A stretch of DNA of 36,606 bases from Deltaproteobacteria bacterium (GTDB taxonomy: Bacteria; Myxococcota; SpSt-1050): assembly GCA_026416535.1 (NCBI GenBank), contig JAOAFA010000032.1:1-36606 (forward strand), written 5' to 3'. The position numbers and the translations under genes are program-made. The notes beneath the pieces are model-generated. The model did not search any database. It was not told the origin of the DNA and saw only the letters and a program-made list of their open reading frames with translations. Shown here in pieces: positions 7,066 to 27,811 of this stretch; position 1 is the first letter of the stretch, and the number at the start of each line of letters is the position of its first letter.

Positions 7066-8373
7066 ATGATAAAACCGGAAGTTTATATTAAAGACCTCGA
7101 GAAGTTTGTTGATAGAGAAGTAACCATATATGGGTGGATATACAATATAAGATCTAGTGGCAAAGTCAGATTCCTTCTTGTTAGGGATGGAACTGGTATA
7201 GTTCAATGTGTAGCAACTCCTCAATCTATATCGCCTGGAAAATTTGAAGGTTCCGATAAAATACCACAAGAGAGTTCGATTATTGTCAGAGGAAAAGTTA
7301 GAAAGGACAGTAGGGCGCCTTATTGTGGCTATGAAATTGAACTAACTGATTATAATGTGGTTTCCTACGTTGAAAGAGAATATCCTATAGCCTTGAAGGA
7401 ACATGGGATTGATTTTCTAATGAATCATAGACATCTGTGGATTCGCTCGTATCAGCAGAGTATCATTCTTAGAATTCGGGCAACCATAGTTAAATCAATA
7501 AGGGATTTTTTTGATTCAAATGGTTTTATACTAGTTGATGCACCTATATTTACTCCCAATGCCTGTGAAGGGACATCAACACTATTTGAGACAAACTACT
7601 TTGATACGAAGGCATACCTTACCCAGTCAGGTCAATTATATATGGAGGCAGCAGCGATGGCACTTGGTAAGGTATATTGTTTTGGTCCCACTTTTAGAGC
7701 AGAGAAGAGTAAGACCAGAAGACACTTAACCGAATTTTGGATGGTAGAACCAGAGATGGCATACTATGACCTTGAGGATGATATGGAAGTAGCAGAAGGA
7801 CTCGTCTCATATATTATAGAGACAGTTCTTTTAAAACACGAAAATGAATTAATTGTTTTAGGACGTAATGTTGACAACCTAAGGAAGGCATCAAAAAGAC
7901 CTTTTTATAGAATAAAATATGCCGAGGCAGTGGAGCTATTAAGAAAAGCGGGTCATGATATTAAATATGGTGACGATTTTGGTGGAGATGAAGAAACGAC
8001 CCTAACAAAGCAGTTTGACAAACCAGTATTTGTTACACACTATCCAATCGAAATCAAGGCTTTTTATATGAAACGCGACCCAAATGACCCTTCACTTGCT
8101 CTTAACATGGATCTCCTCGCCCCAGAGGGTTATGGAGAGATAATAGGTGGTGGACAGAGAGAAGATAATTTACAGATTCTATTAGAATCAATAAAGAAAC
8201 ATAACCTTCCACAAAATGTATTCGAATGGTATCTGGATCTTAGAAGATATGGTTCAGTGCCTCATTCTGGCTTTGGGCTTGGAGTTGAAAGGACTATTGC
8301 TTATATTTGTGGATTACATCATGTGAGAGAGACAATACCATTTCCAAGACTTATGGATAGACTCAATCCATAG
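7066..8373 (+). CDS. asnS: Asparaginyl-tRNA synthetase
   Basis: A 435-residue class IIb aminoacyl-tRNA synthetase. An N-terminal OB-fold anticodon-binding domain (about 1-105; starting EVTIYGWIYNIRSSGKVRFLLVRD) is followed by the catalytic domain. Motif 2 region: LYMEAAAMALGKVYCFGPTFRAEKS and RRHLTEFWMVEPEMA. Motif 3: GFGLGVERTIAYICGL with HHVRETIPFPR near the end. The pattern and short length match AsnRS (about 430-460 residues) rather than bacterial AspRS, which carries a GAD insertion. It charges tRNA-Asn directly. Likely cotranscribed with the upstream YciO-type gene. Convergent with the PHP gene, with only seven bases between the stops. Confidence 0.96.
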   Translation: MIKPEVYIKDLEKFVDREVTIYGWIYNIRSSGKVRFLLVRDGTGIVQCVATPQSISPGKFEGSDKIPQESSIIVRGKVRKDSRAPYCGYEIELTDYNVVSYVEREYPIALKEHGIDFLMNHRHLWIRSYQQSIILRIRATIVKSIRDFFDSNGFILVDAPIFTPNACEGTSTLFETNYFDTKAYLTQSGQLYMEAAAMALGKVYCFGPTFRAEKSKTRRHLTEFWMVEPEMAYYDLEDDMEVAEGLVSYIIETVLLKHENELIVLGRNVDNLRKASKRPFYRIKYAEAVELLRKAGHDIKYGDDFGGDEETTLTKQFDKPVFVTHYPIEIKAFYMKRDPNDPSLALNMDLLAPEGYGEIIGGGQREDNLQILLESIKKHNLPQNVFEWYLDLRRYGSVPHSGFGLGVERTIAYICGLHHVRETIPFPRLMDRLNP

Positions 8374-18818: not shown

Positions 18819-20402
18819 TTATTCAATAAAAGAACAACTACACCCATTGGAGCCACTGTTATCCGTATTTGTGTCAAAAGATGATAAATTATCTATTATG
18901 CCTTCGGTGTCTTTATACATGAGAATATCCTCTTCTATCTCATCGTTACCTATAATATCTTCCCTTTTTTCAGATTGATTGTCAGATAAAAATGTGTCCC
19001 TTCCTGCATCTAATACACCTGTGTCTCTCGGGGGAATCTCGCCATCACAATACCCATTTTTACATGACTCTTCACACTGTTGATGAAGCACCCAGCCACC
19101 TGTTGCATTACATATCTCTACGATAATTTTGACTCCAATATCTCTGCATCTCCTTTCCCCTTCTTTACAGCCACCTATACACTGGCCATCCTTACACCCA
19201 CCGGGACATTCGTTGGTTCTATTAGTTCCATCTCCAAATGAGTTACATTTTACTATCCAATTGCCATCACATGAAAAAGTTCCAGGATTACATATCTTTT
19301 CCGGTGTGTATATTTCACATGTTTTAATAGAGGGTGTATTTTCGCCAACGTTTCCTCCACATATAAGCACTCCTTCTGGTCCAAGGAGTTCAGCAGTATG
19401 ATTTGCACGAGCCGTAATTAAATTAAGCGTATTTGCCCATTTGCCCGTATTAGGGTCATATAGTTCAAGTTGGGGGATAGCCTTTCCATCTTTATCAATT
19501 CCTCCTGATGCCAATACTTTTCCGTTATGTAAGAGCGTAAGCCTAAAATCCCTTCTAGGTGTATTTAGACCGCCTGTCTTTCTTATCTCATTCATAAGGG
19601 GATTATAGATGAATGTTTCTTGTAGAAAGCTTCCATTTTCATTTATACCACCTGCTATTAAGATATCGCTGTTACTTAAGGTCACTATTTGGTGTCCTAT
19701 TATATCTGACGGAAGCTCTTTAGCTACGGACACCGAATCATCCTTATAGTTGTAGACCTCCATTACCTTATTGCCTCCCCCGACAATTAATATTTTGCTT
19801 TCGGGGATGGCTACAAATTTATGACCATTTCTCGGATAAGAAAGATTATTAGGGGATTGAACCCAGTTGATTTCATTATTGGATACGACAAGTTTAGTTA
19901 TCGAATTGCCCGGCCCTATTAGCACAGAAAATATTAAAGGCTCCTCTGTGGGATTAAAAAACACAATACCCCCAGAATGCCCTACTGGTAGTGGTTTAAA
20001 TTCGTCTACAGACTTGGTCTGTATATCATAGAAATCTGCCTTGGTTATAGGTGACCCACTCTGATCTTCTCCGCCAACTATTAAAATCGACCCCTTTTCG
20101 GAACCTTGTTTAGATAAAGCAAAAAAATTCGCAATAGGTGGGTTCTTTCTTGCAACTTTCATTTTTGGGCCGCTTGTCCAACTTAGGGTTTGGATAGAAA
20201 AAAATTCACAGGTATCAAGGATAGTATTTCCATTTTTGCCACCACAGATTAAGTATGAACCTTCTATAGGGATATAAAGTCCTTCGTGATATGCTCTTGG
20301 TGTAATCATGGATTGGGCAGGTTTTACCTTTGCAGGTTCTTGCGTGTAACCAATACTTAAAAACATCAGAGATATTGTCAAATAGATGATCTTATACCTC
20401 AT
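18819..20402 (-). CDS. Secreted Kelch-propeller protein with Cys-rich module, acidic linker and GCSCSFIE tail
   Basis: A 527-residue exported protein. Signal peptide (1-20; cut near GYT) is followed by about six Kelch blades (about 35-365), each with a Gly-Gly core: ICGGKNGNTILDTCEFF, IVGGEDQSG, IVGGGNKVMEVY, IAGGINENG, ASGGIDKDG, ICGGNVGEN. A Cys-rich module (about 370-450) repeats patterns such as FSCDGNWIVKCNSFGD, GGCKDGQCIGGC and CKNGYCDG, as in Myxococcota surface proteins. A 70-residue Asp/Glu/Ser linker then leads to the final residues NGCSCSFIE. The same GCxCxFIE ending occurs on the phosphatase at 21393. AAGGAGG precedes the ATG. Likely surface-displayed binding protein; ligand unknown. 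Confidence 0.8.
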   Translation of the reverse strand: MRYKIIYLTISLMFLSIGYTQEPAKVKPAQSMITPRAYHEGLYIPIEGSYLICGGKNGNTILDTCEFFSIQTLSWTSGPKMKVARKNPPIANFFALSKQGSEKGSILIVGGEDQSGSPITKADFYDIQTKSVDEFKPLPVGHSGGIVFFNPTEEPLIFSVLIGPGNSITKLVVSNNEINWVQSPNNLSYPRNGHKFVAIPESKILIVGGGNKVMEVYNYKDDSVSVAKELPSDIIGHQIVTLSNSDILIAGGINENGSFLQETFIYNPLMNEIRKTGGLNTPRRDFRLTLLHNGKVLASGGIDKDGKAIPQLELYDPNTGKWANTLNLITARANHTAELLGPEGVLICGGNVGENTPSIKTCEIYTPEKICNPGTFSCDGNWIVKCNSFGDGTNRTNECPGGCKDGQCIGGCKEGERRCRDIGVKIIVEICNATGGWVLHQQCEESCKNGYCDGEIPPRDTGVLDAGRDTFLSDNQSEKREDIIGNDEIEEDILMYKDTEGIIDNLSSFDTNTDNSGSNGCSCSFIE

Positions 20403-20426
20403 GACAGACCTCCTTATGGTAAATAC

Positions 20427-20455
20427 ATATTAATTATTCTCATAAATTTTTACAA
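20427..20455 (-). promoter_or_regulatory. Candidate promoter for the Kelch/lipoprotein block
   Basis: On the minus strand, TTGTAA (20455-20450) and TAATAT (20432-20427) are 17 bases apart, about 25 bases before the Kelch ATG. It could drive the four minus-strand genes down to 14811. Consensus match only; the rest of 20456-20679 shows no gene. Confidence 0.45.
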
Positions 20456-20679
20456 CAAAATTCCTATAATTTTGATTTAATGGGGAGTGATTAGCATTGT
20501 TTCAGTATAATTTATCTAAAATGGGGGATTTAAAACTGAATTTCTTTTTTGTTTATACAAGATAAACCTCTTTATTGATAATCTGGAACGAAAAACAAGT
20601 AGAATGGCTAAAGTAGTCGAGATGTACGCCTGTCGATCAGATTGTTTTAGTTTGCAAAAAGTTTGAATATGAAATGCTA

Positions 20680-21249
20680 TTATTTAAGGCTGTTTTCAGC
20701 AAATGCTATTCCAAAACCAATGAACACGGCTCTTGTTAGGGTGATTCTTATTAAATCACCTGTGTAAAAAGATAAAGTTTCTATAGAGGGCATTGCCTTT
20801 CTCAAAATGTTCATCTCAATACTTGCAACTTTATCAATTAACATCTCTGCTGCTGGCTCTTCATCCAATAAATTGTTAAATGCCTCGCTTCTCTCATTTG
20901 GGGTTCGTGGAACCATCGTATTATTGTATTCGTCCATAAGAGTTGGATTATAGCGTATCCCCTTTTTAGGCTTTCTTTTAATCTTTTTTAGATTTTGATA
21001 AGAAATAAATATTAGATAACCGGAGAACAAGGAATTTCCTATCGCTCTAACTATTTTGTTACTTTCTTCTTTTGGGAGTTTGTTTAGTTCAGGAGCCTCT
21101 TCAAATAACTTTTCTTCTAGTTGGTAATTAAACTGGTCAATAGCAGCAGCTACGCCATCCTCAATTGTGTCATCCAGCGCTCTTGCCTCTTCTGGGGAGA
21201 GTGCGTTTAGCCTATCCCATTCCCTCGCTATATCCTTATACATTAACAT
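20680..21249 (-). CDS. Hypothetical protein, 189 residues
   Basis: I do not recognise this protein. It has no signal peptide. The first about 75 residues are acidic and helical (SPEEARALDDTIEDGVAAA), followed by a semi-hydrophobic stretch (SLFSGYLIFISYQNL), a Lys-rich patch (KKIKRKPKKGIRY), and another helical region ending in a semi-hydrophobic helix (AVFIGFGIAFAENSLK). This looks like a cytoplasmic all-alpha protein. The start is supported by AAAGGAGG seven bases before the ATG at 21249. A TTGACA (21309-21304, minus) lies upstream but I see no good -10. Divergent from the phosphatase gene; monocistronic. Confidence 0.7.
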   Translation of the reverse strand: MLMYKDIAREWDRLNALSPEEARALDDTIEDGVAAAIDQFNYQLEEKLFEEAPELNKLPKEESNKIVRAIGNSLFSGYLIFISYQNLKKIKRKPKKGIRYNPTLMDEYNNTMVPRTPNERSEAFNNLLDEEPAAEMLIDKVASIEMNILRKAMPSIETLSFYTGDLIRITLTRAVFIGFGIAFAENSLK

Positions 21250-21340
21250 CAGATGACCTCCTTTGTGCGCGCATTCAAGTTACCTCTCATCGGTTTTGCT
21301 TTTTGTCAAGTGAAAATAAAAACTATATTTTTTGGACTAT

Positions 21341-21369
21341 TTGACTTAAAAAGATTTTAATATTAAAAT
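21341..21369 (+). promoter_or_regulatory. Promoter for the secreted phosphatase gene
   Basis: TTGACT (21341-21346) and TAAAAT (21364-21369) are 17 bases apart, 23 bases before the ATG at 21393. Good consensus match in both boxes and spacing. Confidence 0.55.
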
Positions 21370-21392
21370 AGTAAATAAATGAGGTTAGAGCT

Positions 21393-23018
21393 ATGAAAAT
21401 TATTTATCTCTTGTCTCTTATCTTTTTTACTTTTCTACCATTATTGAATGCAGATCCAAAATATATAAGGTTGTCATATACAAAAGATGCCTCTTCTACA
21501 ATTACGATAGTGTGGCATACCGATATAGAGACGGATACTATGGTGAAATACGGCAAAAAAAGTGGAGTATATACAAACTCTGCAACGGGAAACTCTTTTA
21601 AGGCTAATGGTTTATTAAATTATATTCATGAGGTTACTCTTACAGGACTTGAACCTGATACAACTTATTATTATATAGTGGGTAGTAATTCCGATGGCTT
21701 CTCAAGCGAAAGAAGTTTTAAAACAGGACCTAAGGAAGATATTAATTGTGCTGAATTTAGCTTTGGATATCATGGGGATAATAGACCTGATCCAACATTT
21801 GGCGGTGGTGAAAATTGGCCTAAAATACTGGAGCAATGTGCCGCTCATGGGCCATCGTTTACCATAAGTGGTGGAGATTTGGTTATAGATGGTGACAAAA
21901 TTGACCAATGGATTAAGTTTTTAGGGTGGACTGAAAAAGTCGCAAGTAGTATTCCGTTTATGCCAACGATTGGGAATCACGATGATGGGCCGGGACAAGG
22001 TGATTCAGCTAATTATAATCAGATATTTGCTCTACCGCGCTCAGCTGGCATTTATGGAAGTAATACCGAAGATTACTATTATTTTACGTATGGCAATGCC
22101 ATATTTGTTTCTCTATCTACTCAAACATTTAAGGAAGGTTCTATCCCATTTGAGAAACAAGCAAAATGGTTAGACGAGGTCCTTACGAATAATCCTAAGA
22201 AATGGAAGTTTGTGTACTACCATCATCCTTCATATACAAAGAACGTAGTATTTGACATAAGTCATCAACCCAATGAAGTTAATCAAAATGCCGCTTTAAT
22301 ACCTGTATTTGATAAACATCATGTGGATATAGTATTCACAAGTCACAATCACTGGTATGAGCGATTTGAACCCTCAGCCTGTTCTAAATTGGGTAACGCA
22401 GGCTCTGATCAACCATGTCCTGTTGGGGAAAAGAATTTTGATAAGGGGACTGTTTATGTTGTCTCAGGAGGTGCAGGGGCATTTACAATTCCAGGATTAC
22501 TATGCGGGACAATGAAGGGGAGAGTCAAGTGTTCAGGGGATCATCATTATATAATTGTAAAAATAAAAGATGAAGTATTGACATATGAAGCCTATTCAGC
22601 TTATCCTCAACAAAATAAAATGATGGATACCTTTACGATTTCGAAAACTATTGGAAATTGTTCTGCATCTATAGATGCAGGATACCAAGATGTTTTAGGA
22701 GATGGGTTATTATTGGATATTATATTAAGTGATGAAGATTCTGGAATTAGCAGTGGTGATATACGGGATATTGGAACAAATACGGGTGATGAATCGGTAC
22801 AAGACATTTTTGAACATGATACTTTTGATATAAGTGAAAATATAGTGGATAAGGAGATGCATGATTTTGTGGATCTCTATGATAGTACTGAGCAACCAGA
22901 TAGGGTAGATGATAACGTAAACGATATTAAGACGACTCTTGATATTGCCGCAAGGGCTGATGTACCTTTATCTGATTCAAGTGAATCCGTCGGTTGTGGG
23001 TGTCTCTTTATAGAGTAA
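21393..23018 (+). CDS. Secreted purple-acid-phosphatase-like metallophosphoesterase with GCGCLFIE tail
   Basis: A 541-residue exported enzyme. Signal peptide to about residue 20 (LNA); fibronectin-III-like N domain of purple acid phosphatases (about 22-110, ending LEPDTTYYYIVG); calcineurin-type catalytic domain (about 120-410). Metal-ligand motifs appear in order: GYHGDNRPD, ISGGDLVIDGD, TIGNHDDGPG, YYHHPSYT and FTSHNHWYERFEP. It should hydrolyse phosphomonoesters outside the cytoplasm. The last about 125 residues are an Asp/Ser/Glu-rich linker with spaced Asp (DIILSDEDSG) ending in SVGCGCLFIE. This tail matches the Kelch protein ending, though the two proteins are otherwise unrelated. The small Cys-rich lipoprotein gene follows six bases after the stop. 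Confidence 0.88.
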   Translation: MKIIYLLSLIFFTFLPLLNADPKYIRLSYTKDASSTITIVWHTDIETDTMVKYGKKSGVYTNSATGNSFKANGLLNYIHEVTLTGLEPDTTYYYIVGSNSDGFSSERSFKTGPKEDINCAEFSFGYHGDNRPDPTFGGGENWPKILEQCAAHGPSFTISGGDLVIDGDKIDQWIKFLGWTEKVASSIPFMPTIGNHDDGPGQGDSANYNQIFALPRSAGIYGSNTEDYYYFTYGNAIFVSLSTQTFKEGSIPFEKQAKWLDEVLTNNPKKWKFVYYHHPSYTKNVVFDISHQPNEVNQNAALIPVFDKHHVDIVFTSHNHWYERFEPSACSKLGNAGSDQPCPVGEKNFDKGTVYVVSGGAGAFTIPGLLCGTMKGRVKCSGDHHYIIVKIKDEVLTYEAYSAYPQQNKMMDTFTISKTIGNCSASIDAGYQDVLGDGLLLDIILSDEDSGISSGDIRDIGTNTGDESVQDIFEHDTFDISENIVDKEMHDFVDLYDSTEQPDRVDDNVNDIKTTLDIAARADVPLSDSSESVGCGCLFIE

Positions 23019-26071: not shown

Positions 26072-27415
26072 ATGGAAGAAAAGATTAAAGAAGTAGGTAA
26101 GATTGAGAGTTTTAATGACAAGAAGTTTGGAGATTCGGAAGAGTCGTTTGCCAAGCTACTTGAAGAGTCTGGACAAAAGAGAATAGGTCCTCAAGAAGGA
26201 GAGTTGATCAAGGGGAAAGTAGTAAAAGTTCAAAAGGATTTTGTATTAGTGGATGTTGGTTTGAAATCTGAAGGGAAGATAAATATACTTGAATTTGGGA
26301 CTAAAATTCCCAAGGAAGGTGACATAATAGAGGTATTACTTGAACAGTATGAAGACAACGAGGGTCTTATAGTCTTATCTAAAGAAAAGGCTGATAAGAT
26401 AAAGGTGTGGGATGATATAACCTATGCCTATGAACATAACAAACCTATAGAAGGGACAATTGTCGCTAAAGTAAATAAAGGATTATCTGTTGATATCGGT
26501 GTAAGGGCATTCCTACCTGGGTCACACATAGATTTAAGACCCGTAAAAAATTTCGAGAAGCTCATAGGTACTACTGCTAAATTTAAGATTATAAAATTCA
26601 ACAAAAAGAGGGGAAATATTGTCCTTTCTCGTAGACAGATTCTTGAAGAAGAAAGGGAAGAGCTCCGAAGGGAGACATTAGCTAAATTGAAAGAAGGAGA
26701 GATTGTAAAAGGGACGGTAAAAAATATTACAGAATATGGGGTGTTTATAGATTTAGGTGGAGTAGATGGACTATTACATATATCTTATATTACATGGGGG
26801 AGGATAAATCACCCTGAAGAGCAGTTTAAGATAGGAGATGAGGTTCAGGTTAAAGTATTAAAATATGATAAGGCAAATGAAAAAGTTTCGCTCGGGTTGA
26901 AGCAGCTAACAGAGGATCCGTGGCTTAGGGTTCATGAAAAGTATCCGATCGGCACAAAAGTAAAAGGTAAGATTGTAAGTCTTCCTGATTATGGGATCTT
27001 TGTAGAGATTGAACCAGGTGTTGAGGGACTTGTCCACGTAAGTGAGATAAGTTGGACCAAAAAGAGCAAAAATCCATTAAAGAACTTTAACTTAGGGGAT
27101 ATTGTGGAGGCTGTTGTTTTAGATGTGGATCCAGCAAACAGAAAGATCTCTCTTGGGATGAAGCAGTTAGAGCCTAATCCATGGCTTTTGCTGAAGGAAA
27201 AATTCCCTATAGGGACCAGGGTAAAAGGTAGAATAAAGAATATCACAGATTTTGGAGTGTTTATTGGAGTGGATGAGGGCATTGATGGACTCGTACACAT
27301 ATCGGATTTGACATGGTCCCAGAGGATAAAACATCCAGGTGAACTTTATCGAAAGGGCGATGAGGTGGAGGCTGTTGTTCTCAAGGTCGCCGTTGAAAAT
27401 GAGAGATTCTCATGA
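26072..27415 (+). CDS. rpsA: Ribosomal protein S1, domains 1-5, cut by an in-frame TGA
   Basis: A 447-residue product with five S1 (OB-fold RNA-binding) domains, beginning near GELIKGKVVKV, KPIEGTIVAKV, GEIVKGTVKNI, GTKVKGKIVSL and GTRVKGRIKNI. S1 brings mRNA to the 30S ribosome. The frame ends at TGA 27413-27415, in the block where earlier repeats read KVSLGLKQL and KISLGMKQL. Here it reads RFS-stop-GIKHLNPDPW, so the stop sits exactly at the conserved Leu. The same frame stays open to 27811 and holds a sixth S1 domain; the whole would be 579 residues, close to the six-domain S1 of E. coli (557). TTA-to-TGA is one base change. It may be a real nonsense change, a sequence error or readthrough. 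Confidence 0.9.
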   Translation: MEEKIKEVGKIESFNDKKFGDSEESFAKLLEESGQKRIGPQEGELIKGKVVKVQKDFVLVDVGLKSEGKINILEFGTKIPKEGDIIEVLLEQYEDNEGLIVLSKEKADKIKVWDDITYAYEHNKPIEGTIVAKVNKGLSVDIGVRAFLPGSHIDLRPVKNFEKLIGTTAKFKIIKFNKKRGNIVLSRRQILEEEREELRRETLAKLKEGEIVKGTVKNITEYGVFIDLGGVDGLLHISYITWGRINHPEEQFKIGDEVQVKVLKYDKANEKVSLGLKQLTEDPWLRVHEKYPIGTKVKGKIVSLPDYGIFVEIEPGVEGLVHVSEISWTKKSKNPLKNFNLGDIVEAVVLDVDPANRKISLGMKQLEPNPWLLLKEKFPIGTRVKGRIKNITDFGVFIGVDEGIDGLVHISDLTWSQRIKHPGELYRKGDEVEAVVLKVAVENERFS

Positions 27416-27454
27416 GGAATAAAACATCTTAACCCTGATCCTTGGACTAGGTTT

Positions 27455-27811
27455 ATGGATGAGTACTCCGTTGGTTCGAAAGTTCAGGGTAAGGTTGTGA
27501 AAGTTACCGATTTTGGAGCATTCGTAGAAATAATTCCTGGAATAGAAGGACTCTTGCACGTAAGTGAGATGAAAGAGGAGAGGATAGATAACCCCAAACA
27601 GGTTGTAAAAGAAGGTGATATTGTAAGAGTAATGATTATTGATATAAATCAGAATGACAGGAAAGTGGCGCTCTCAATGAAAGCACTTGTGAAGTTAGGA
27701 GAGGAGGAAGACTATAGGGCATACCAACAGAAAGAAGAGGATTCGAGAGGTAAATTAGGAGATATATTAAAACAGGAAGGTATTTTGGAGCAGTTTAAGA
27801 AAGAAAAATGA
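27455..27811 (+). CDS. Sixth S1 domain of ribosomal protein S1, separated by the in-frame TGA
   Basis: This is the continuation of the upstream frame. From the codon after the TGA (27416), 13 codons read GIKHLNPDPWTRF; the first in-frame ATG is 27455. The 118 residues contain a full S1 domain (GSKVQGKVVKVTDFGAFVEI, GIEGLLHVSEM) and an acidic tail. There is no good Shine-Dalgarno before the ATG, so independent translation looks weak. Most likely this is the C-terminal domain of one S1 protein, lost only if the TGA is real and not read through. sppA begins nine bases after its stop. Confidence 0.75.
   Translation: MDEYSVGSKVQGKVVKVTDFGAFVEIIPGIEGLLHVSEMKEERIDNPKQVVKEGDIVRVMIIDINQNDRKVALSMKALVKLGEEEDYRAYQQKEEDSRGKLGDILKQEGILEQFKKEK

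Follow-up and report, generated by a model that had tools for sequence, protein, structure and literature searches.

The stretch of DNA considered here (the window) comprises 36,606 nucleotides, positions 1 to 36,606 of contig JAOAFA010000032.1 from an assembly of the Myxococcota (GCA_026416535.1; lineage SpSt-1050). Two divergently oriented genes within it encode an exported Kelch protein and an exported phosphatase that end in similar eight-residue, cysteine-containing tails, and it is with these tails that this study is concerned. The features of the two genes are:

18819-20402, minus strand: exported Kelch/β-propeller protein, 527 amino acids (translation, domain search)
20343-20402, minus strand: Kelch signal peptide, approximately residues 1-20, MRYKIIYLTISLMFLSIGYT (read from the translation)
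18846-19037, minus strand: Kelch Asp/Ser/Glu-rich linker, approximately residues 456-519 (translation)
18819-18845, minus strand: Kelch C-terminal tail GCSCSFIE and stop codon, product end NGCSCSFIE (translation, pattern search)
21393-23018, plus strand: exported purple-acid-phosphatase-like metallophosphoesterase, 541 amino acids (PF16656, E = 1.7e-21; PF00149, E = 7.6e-14)
21393-21452, plus strand: phosphatase signal peptide, approximately residues 1-20, MKIIYLLSLIFFTFLPLLNA (read from the translation)
22671-22991, plus strand: phosphatase Asp/Ser/Glu-rich linker, approximately residues 427-533 (translation)
22992-23018, plus strand: phosphatase C-terminal tail GCGCLFIE and stop codon, product end VGCGCLFIE (translation, pattern search)

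Both tails lie exactly at stop codons, as had been proposed in the original prediction, which also placed each behind an acidic linker of 70-125 residues. The linkers are present, although their lengths had been misjudged, being about 64 residues in the Kelch protein and about 107 in the phosphatase. The N-terminus of the Kelch protein resembles a signal peptide and has no lipobox. The two proteins share no domain (purple acid phosphatase/Metallophos as against Kelch) and, in agreement with the earlier view that they are unrelated, a BLASTP comparison gave E = 0.049 with little aligned outside the low-complexity acidic linker and the tail. The tail-coding pattern matched twice in the window and not at all in 100 shuffles. 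In the one other genome of the genus compared (G167) the same divergent pair is found, with the Kelch protein ending GCSCSLVE and the phosphatase GCGCSLLK. Over aligned columns the linker of the Kelch protein is 49% identical to that of its congeneric homologue and the body 75%; for the phosphatase the corresponding values are 36% and 81%.

The tails of these two proteins belong to a large family. In the source genome (G000; 2.96 Mb, 98% complete) the pattern GCxC-x-[xTx]-x-[E/K]-stop occurred at 13 sites, compared with none in a backwards control, rising to 18 when one mismatch was allowed, and at this stage 42 distinct carriers from both genomes were compared. When any residue was accepted at the last four positions, there were 75 matches against 15 in the control for G000 and 87 against 41 for G167. 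Among the matches listed in translation (63 of the 75 and all 87), about 30 in G000 and about 50 in G167 end as [GA]C[SGNAE]C-x-φ-φ-X-stop, where φ is hydrophobic. The counts were made by eye on 33 and 58 core-like strings respectively, and a few of these strings (GCSCFWKR and ACGCCKGL, for example) look like chance. The tail is therefore not confined to the two proteins in which it was noticed. Sixteen further G000 loci, nearly all with a final residue other than Glu, yielded 13 carrier open reading frames with exported-type N-termini, one of these being cut by the contig end so that its N-terminus is unseen; the other three (L239, L241 and L242, the last a very short frame) gave no such carrier.

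Four residues follow the second Cys of the tail and six follow the first. Of the GC[SG]C sites listed from both genomes that have an in-frame stop within 10 codons, 36 of 51 have exactly four residues between the second Cys and the stop, with no other distance occurring at more than four sites. Hydrophobic residues (L, I, F or V) stand at Cys+2 and Cys+3, and Ser or Asn is usual at Cys+1. The terminal position is free: Glu and Asp are the most frequent there, and Asn, Tyr, Phe, His and Lys also occur; the conserved FIE end originally proposed thus gives way to x-φ-φ-X with X variable. An obligatory terminal Glu was likewise considered and was dropped after the unbiased search in which X was free. 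Among those one-mismatch matches that read as tails, the Gly, the hydrophobic pair and the Glu all vary and neither Cys ever does. Two homologous M10-type proteases (L240 and L246) end in GCSCSILSY and GCSCSTISY, one residue beyond the rule.

Conservation of the tail was examined in 11 reciprocal-best pairs between the two genomes, in which bodies are 51-84% and linkers 36-50% identical over aligned columns. The GCxC core and the hydrophobic pair are kept in all 11. Recent fusion of a common tail region, which had been raised as an alternative, does not account for these proteins because their domains are unrelated and because the linkers of homologous pairs have diverged while the tail has stayed. 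A search of 193 other genomes of the phylum, G166 of the same order among them, returned five matches to the Glu-ending pattern against six in the control and eight to the X-free pattern against 10. Single matches in these genomes were set aside, as their number is at the control level and in several the codon at the stop position is TGG (Trp). Among the phylum genomes compared, the tail is confined to the genus.

The carriers include proteases of families M10, M64, M4/M36, S8 (subtilisins) and C1 (papain-like), GH25 and GH123 proteins, NAGPA, amidase_3 and CAP proteins, metallophosphoesterases, Kelch proteins and other β-propellers. Using a simple N-terminal hydrophobicity rule, 53 of 57 carriers have a signal-like N-terminus, compared with 32 of 136 other open reading frames of the same loci (Fisher p = 3e-20), and the expected enrichment in exported proteins is therefore strong; the odds ratio is rough because the comparison frames were taken mechanically and include non-genes. 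The four carriers failing the rule look exported by eye, one apparently having a GTG start and others having no Lys or Arg before the hydrophobic run. The size of the family, its unrelated clients and their signal-like N-termini support the original suggestion that the tail is a short C-terminal sorting or anchoring signal that appears not to have been described.

In the known prokaryotic C-terminal sorting tags of this class (LPXTG, PEP-CTERM, GlyGly-CTERM and MYXO-CTERM), the signature motif is joined by a transmembrane helix and a cluster of basic residues. The tails described here share with MYXO-CTERM the GC[SG]C core with its Cys, present in both genomes (the generic form being GCGC; PMC11980579), and in both cases the carriers are exported, with signal-like N-termini and acidic, disordered-looking linkers. 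They differ in having no transmembrane helix and no Arg-rich cluster, the four residues x-φ-φ-X being all that follows the second Cys, and in the retention of both Cys in the tail matches seen, whereas some MYXO-CTERM tails of the compared genomes have only one (GCSATS, GCSSTG). No transmembrane-less form of MYXO-CTERM was found described in the open-licence papers checked.

Searching G000 and G167 with the MYXO-CTERM profile TIGR03901 gave no matches at E≤0.001 and none over the 20-bit cut-off in a listing to E = 10, a result that an AT-rich form of the signal could still escape. One weak partial match in G000 at E≤10 was judged on reading the sequence not to be MYXO-CTERM. In a genome of the same order (G166), four matches exceed the cut-off in a listing to E = 10. 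Elsewhere in the phylum, hits to the profile reach 26 per genome, from which an assignment to Myxococcota may be deduced. Tripartite MYXO-CTERM-like C-termini below the cut-off were seen in two further genomes, G178 (L184) and G191 (L181); the model under-reports in these lineages, and because such tails were seen there the search is able to detect weak signals.

A more direct connection comes from one set of homologues. Proteins of about 866 amino acids end in GCSCNLLE in G000 and GCSCSLIE in G167, and the G166 homologue, of 963 amino acids, ends in GCGCASVGAGDDAGLLALLAVLGAALAALRRRR. In this last protein GCGC, a transmembrane helix and RRRR occupy the position at which the other two have GCSCxφφE, and the GCxC cores align. 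The G166 and G167 proteins are 34% identical over 908 positions (E = 3e-134), homology here being judged from the alignment. The original prediction had noted a likeness to MYXO-CTERM with the helix and Arg cluster missing; their absence is borne out, and the relation goes beyond resemblance in that the corresponding position of a homologue is taken by the tripartite signal.

It has been shown experimentally that MYXO-CTERM is cleaved by the protease MrtX and that the Cys is required (PMC11980579). Lipidation of MYXO-CTERM is a hypothesis, for which Lgt was suggested as a possible transferase (PMC11980579). A candidate for the co-occurring protease that had been anticipated is encoded in G000, where PF02517 detects a single protein (64.3 bits), the sole CPBP enzyme detected in that genome. 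This protein passes the NCBIfam myxosortase core model Mrt_core (NF040914) at 109.6 to 110.7 bits, and its G167 counterpart at 117.9 to 119.3 bits (cut-off 100); G166 likewise encodes an Mrt-core protein. The G000 and G167 proteins, at 154 and 160 bits, miss the 250-bit equivalog cut-off of MrtP (NF040674), and the G000 enzyme also falls below those of MrtC and MrtX. The CPBP motifs EExxxR, FxxxH and HxxxN/D are intact in the alignment (EEIFFRG, FSLGH/FALGH and HWxSN). JDVT-CTERM and Synerg-CTERM proteins are also served by CPBP-family sorting proteases, MrtJ and MrtS, with which the G000 enzyme scores 72.7 bits (below the cut-off of 75) and 68.4 bits (below 130). Unlike the tails here, both of those signals are tripartite and include a transmembrane helix. 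A sequence search for a solved structure near the G000 enzyme found none. As in MYXO-CTERM systems, the myxosortase-core protease is accompanied in both genomes by type II secretion, marked by a full-length GspD.

All three genomes contain an ileS-lspA-lgt-lgt cluster (G000:C81, L251; G167:C105, L252; G166:C382, L253) in which two Lgt paralogues lie side by side. The tandem copies separate into different groups in a tree of Lgt proteins, the deeper branches of which have poor support. The pair is a lead to a lipid transferase rather than evidence for one. A match to the tail pattern, GCSCSYVH, adjoins the G167 pair.

From the tail family, its geometry and conservation, the homologue described above and the myxosortase-core protease, we favour as the likely explanation that [GA]C[SG]C-x-φ-φ-X-COOH acts as a minimal sorting signal at the C-terminus. 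It would be a form of MYXO-CTERM that lacks the transmembrane part, resembles a CaaX box and is served by the myxosortase. The eight-residue tail probably replaced a longer, membrane-spanning tag and probably works as a lipid-anchoring signal in the manner of the CaaX box of human Ras. It would have arisen when MYXO-CTERM lost its transmembrane helix and its Arg cluster, leaving the core and four residues. Lipidation, the choice of Cys, cleavage and surface location are what we infer. A client would be exported through Sec by its N-terminal signal peptide, after which an enzyme, perhaps of the Lgt type, would attach lipid to a Cys of the CxC motif on the outer side of the inner membrane. The myxosortase, a member of the CPBP/CAAX-protease family, would then cut after the lipidated Cys and remove the short x-φ-φ-X peptide, for which the model is the removal of -aaX from CaaX proteins by Rce1. 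The lipid-tailed protein would be moved to the cell surface by the type II secretion system, where the acidic linker would keep its catalytic domain clear of the membrane. It is possible, and is put forward more tentatively, that the genus runs an extracytoplasmic CaaX-like pathway in which a C-x-φ-φ-X box is lipidated and trimmed by the myxosortase, so that this protease family does not need the tripartite tag, which has been replaced across the detectable clients of one lineage.

Several points weigh against this interpretation. It is drawn from sequence, and the genus is sampled by two genomes that count as one lineage. The tail lacks a transmembrane helix by which it would be retained at the membrane before lipidation, and a canonical CaaX box has three residues after the Cys where the tail has four. 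Mrt-core matches were found in all 12 phylum genomes tested, 11 of them over the cut-off, and the enzyme could therefore be present as inherited housekeeping, with no specific link to the tail. Finally, an N-terminal lipobox is found as well on a few carriers (L128, VASC; L148, LSAC), to which the tail would add a second anchor. A lipobox or lipobox-like N-terminal Cys was noted on some tail carriers (L128, L138, L148, L135, L147 and L209), and together with the C-terminal tail this would put lipid at both ends of the protein.

The tail resembles a nearly fully processed MYXO-CTERM, and it may be asked whether it needs to be cut at all. The Cys might be lipidated and the protein sorted with no proteolysis, x-φ-φ-X aiding recognition by the transferase and the myxosortase being a leftover or acting on other substrates. 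The free X, which a protease may not read, and the encoded lipoprotein-type machinery of the ileS-lspA-lgt-lgt cluster are consistent with this. We nevertheless consider it unlikely, as the fixed four-residue length and the hydrophobic Cys+2 and Cys+3 suggest a protease or another enzyme that reads the C-terminus, and the sole detected CPBP enzyme has been kept with its motifs intact. The loss of the helix and Arg cluster could also be taken to mean that the tails are decayed, non-functional remnants of MYXO-CTERM, or chance. This is scarcely credible given carriers far in excess of controls, exact spacing, signal-like N-termini and retention of the tail in 11 pairs with diverged linkers.

The likeness to eukaryotic CaaX proteins, which lies in a Cys, a hydrophobic pair and a free final residue placed right at the C-terminus and in a CPBP-family (Rce1-related) protease, raises the question of true CaaX chemistry, in which the Cys would be prenylated, the tail cut by the CPBP enzyme and the end possibly methylated, either outside the cytoplasm or before export. 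The clients here, with their signal-like N-termini, leave the cytosol, to which the known protein prenyltransferases belong, and there are four residues after the second Cys rather than three. This chemistry is accordingly regarded as very improbable. Rab-type tails also have two Cys one residue apart near the C-terminus. In those proteins, which are cytosolic, the CxC is terminal and is not cut, whereas the tails here carry four residues beyond it. A signal for an unrelated system (surface cross-linking through Cys, CxC metal binding or type II secretion), with a convergent likeness to MYXO-CTERM, could explain why the one-mismatch matches retain both Cys where some MYXO-CTERM tails have one, and why some clients have a lipobox as well. 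We give this little credence, since full-length homologues have GCGC-helix-RRRR and GCSCxφφE in equivalent positions, the one exchanged for the other, and tripartite MYXO-CTERM is undetected in the tail-bearing genomes.

Two other genes of the window may be recorded. The frame of a ribosomal protein S1-like gene (26072-27811, plus strand) is open except for a TGA at 27413-27415, which falls between S1 repeats (RFS*GIKHL) and may reflect a nonsense change, an assembly error or a natural split. For the asparaginyl-tRNA synthetase (7066-8373, plus strand) the best listed matches are from other phyla at no more than 65% identity, where close records may have been excluded.

A lineage that bears a myxosortase thus appears to retain only the motif and four residues of the signal, on some 30-50 clients per genome, and surface proteins with such tails would escape annotation of the TIGR03901 type. 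If the minimal-signal interpretation is correct, these tails isolate what a myxosortase must recognise, and the eight-residue tag would be usable to probe the lipidation step proposed for MYXO-CTERM. It would also tie bacterial protein sorting closer to the Rce1/CaaX pathway.

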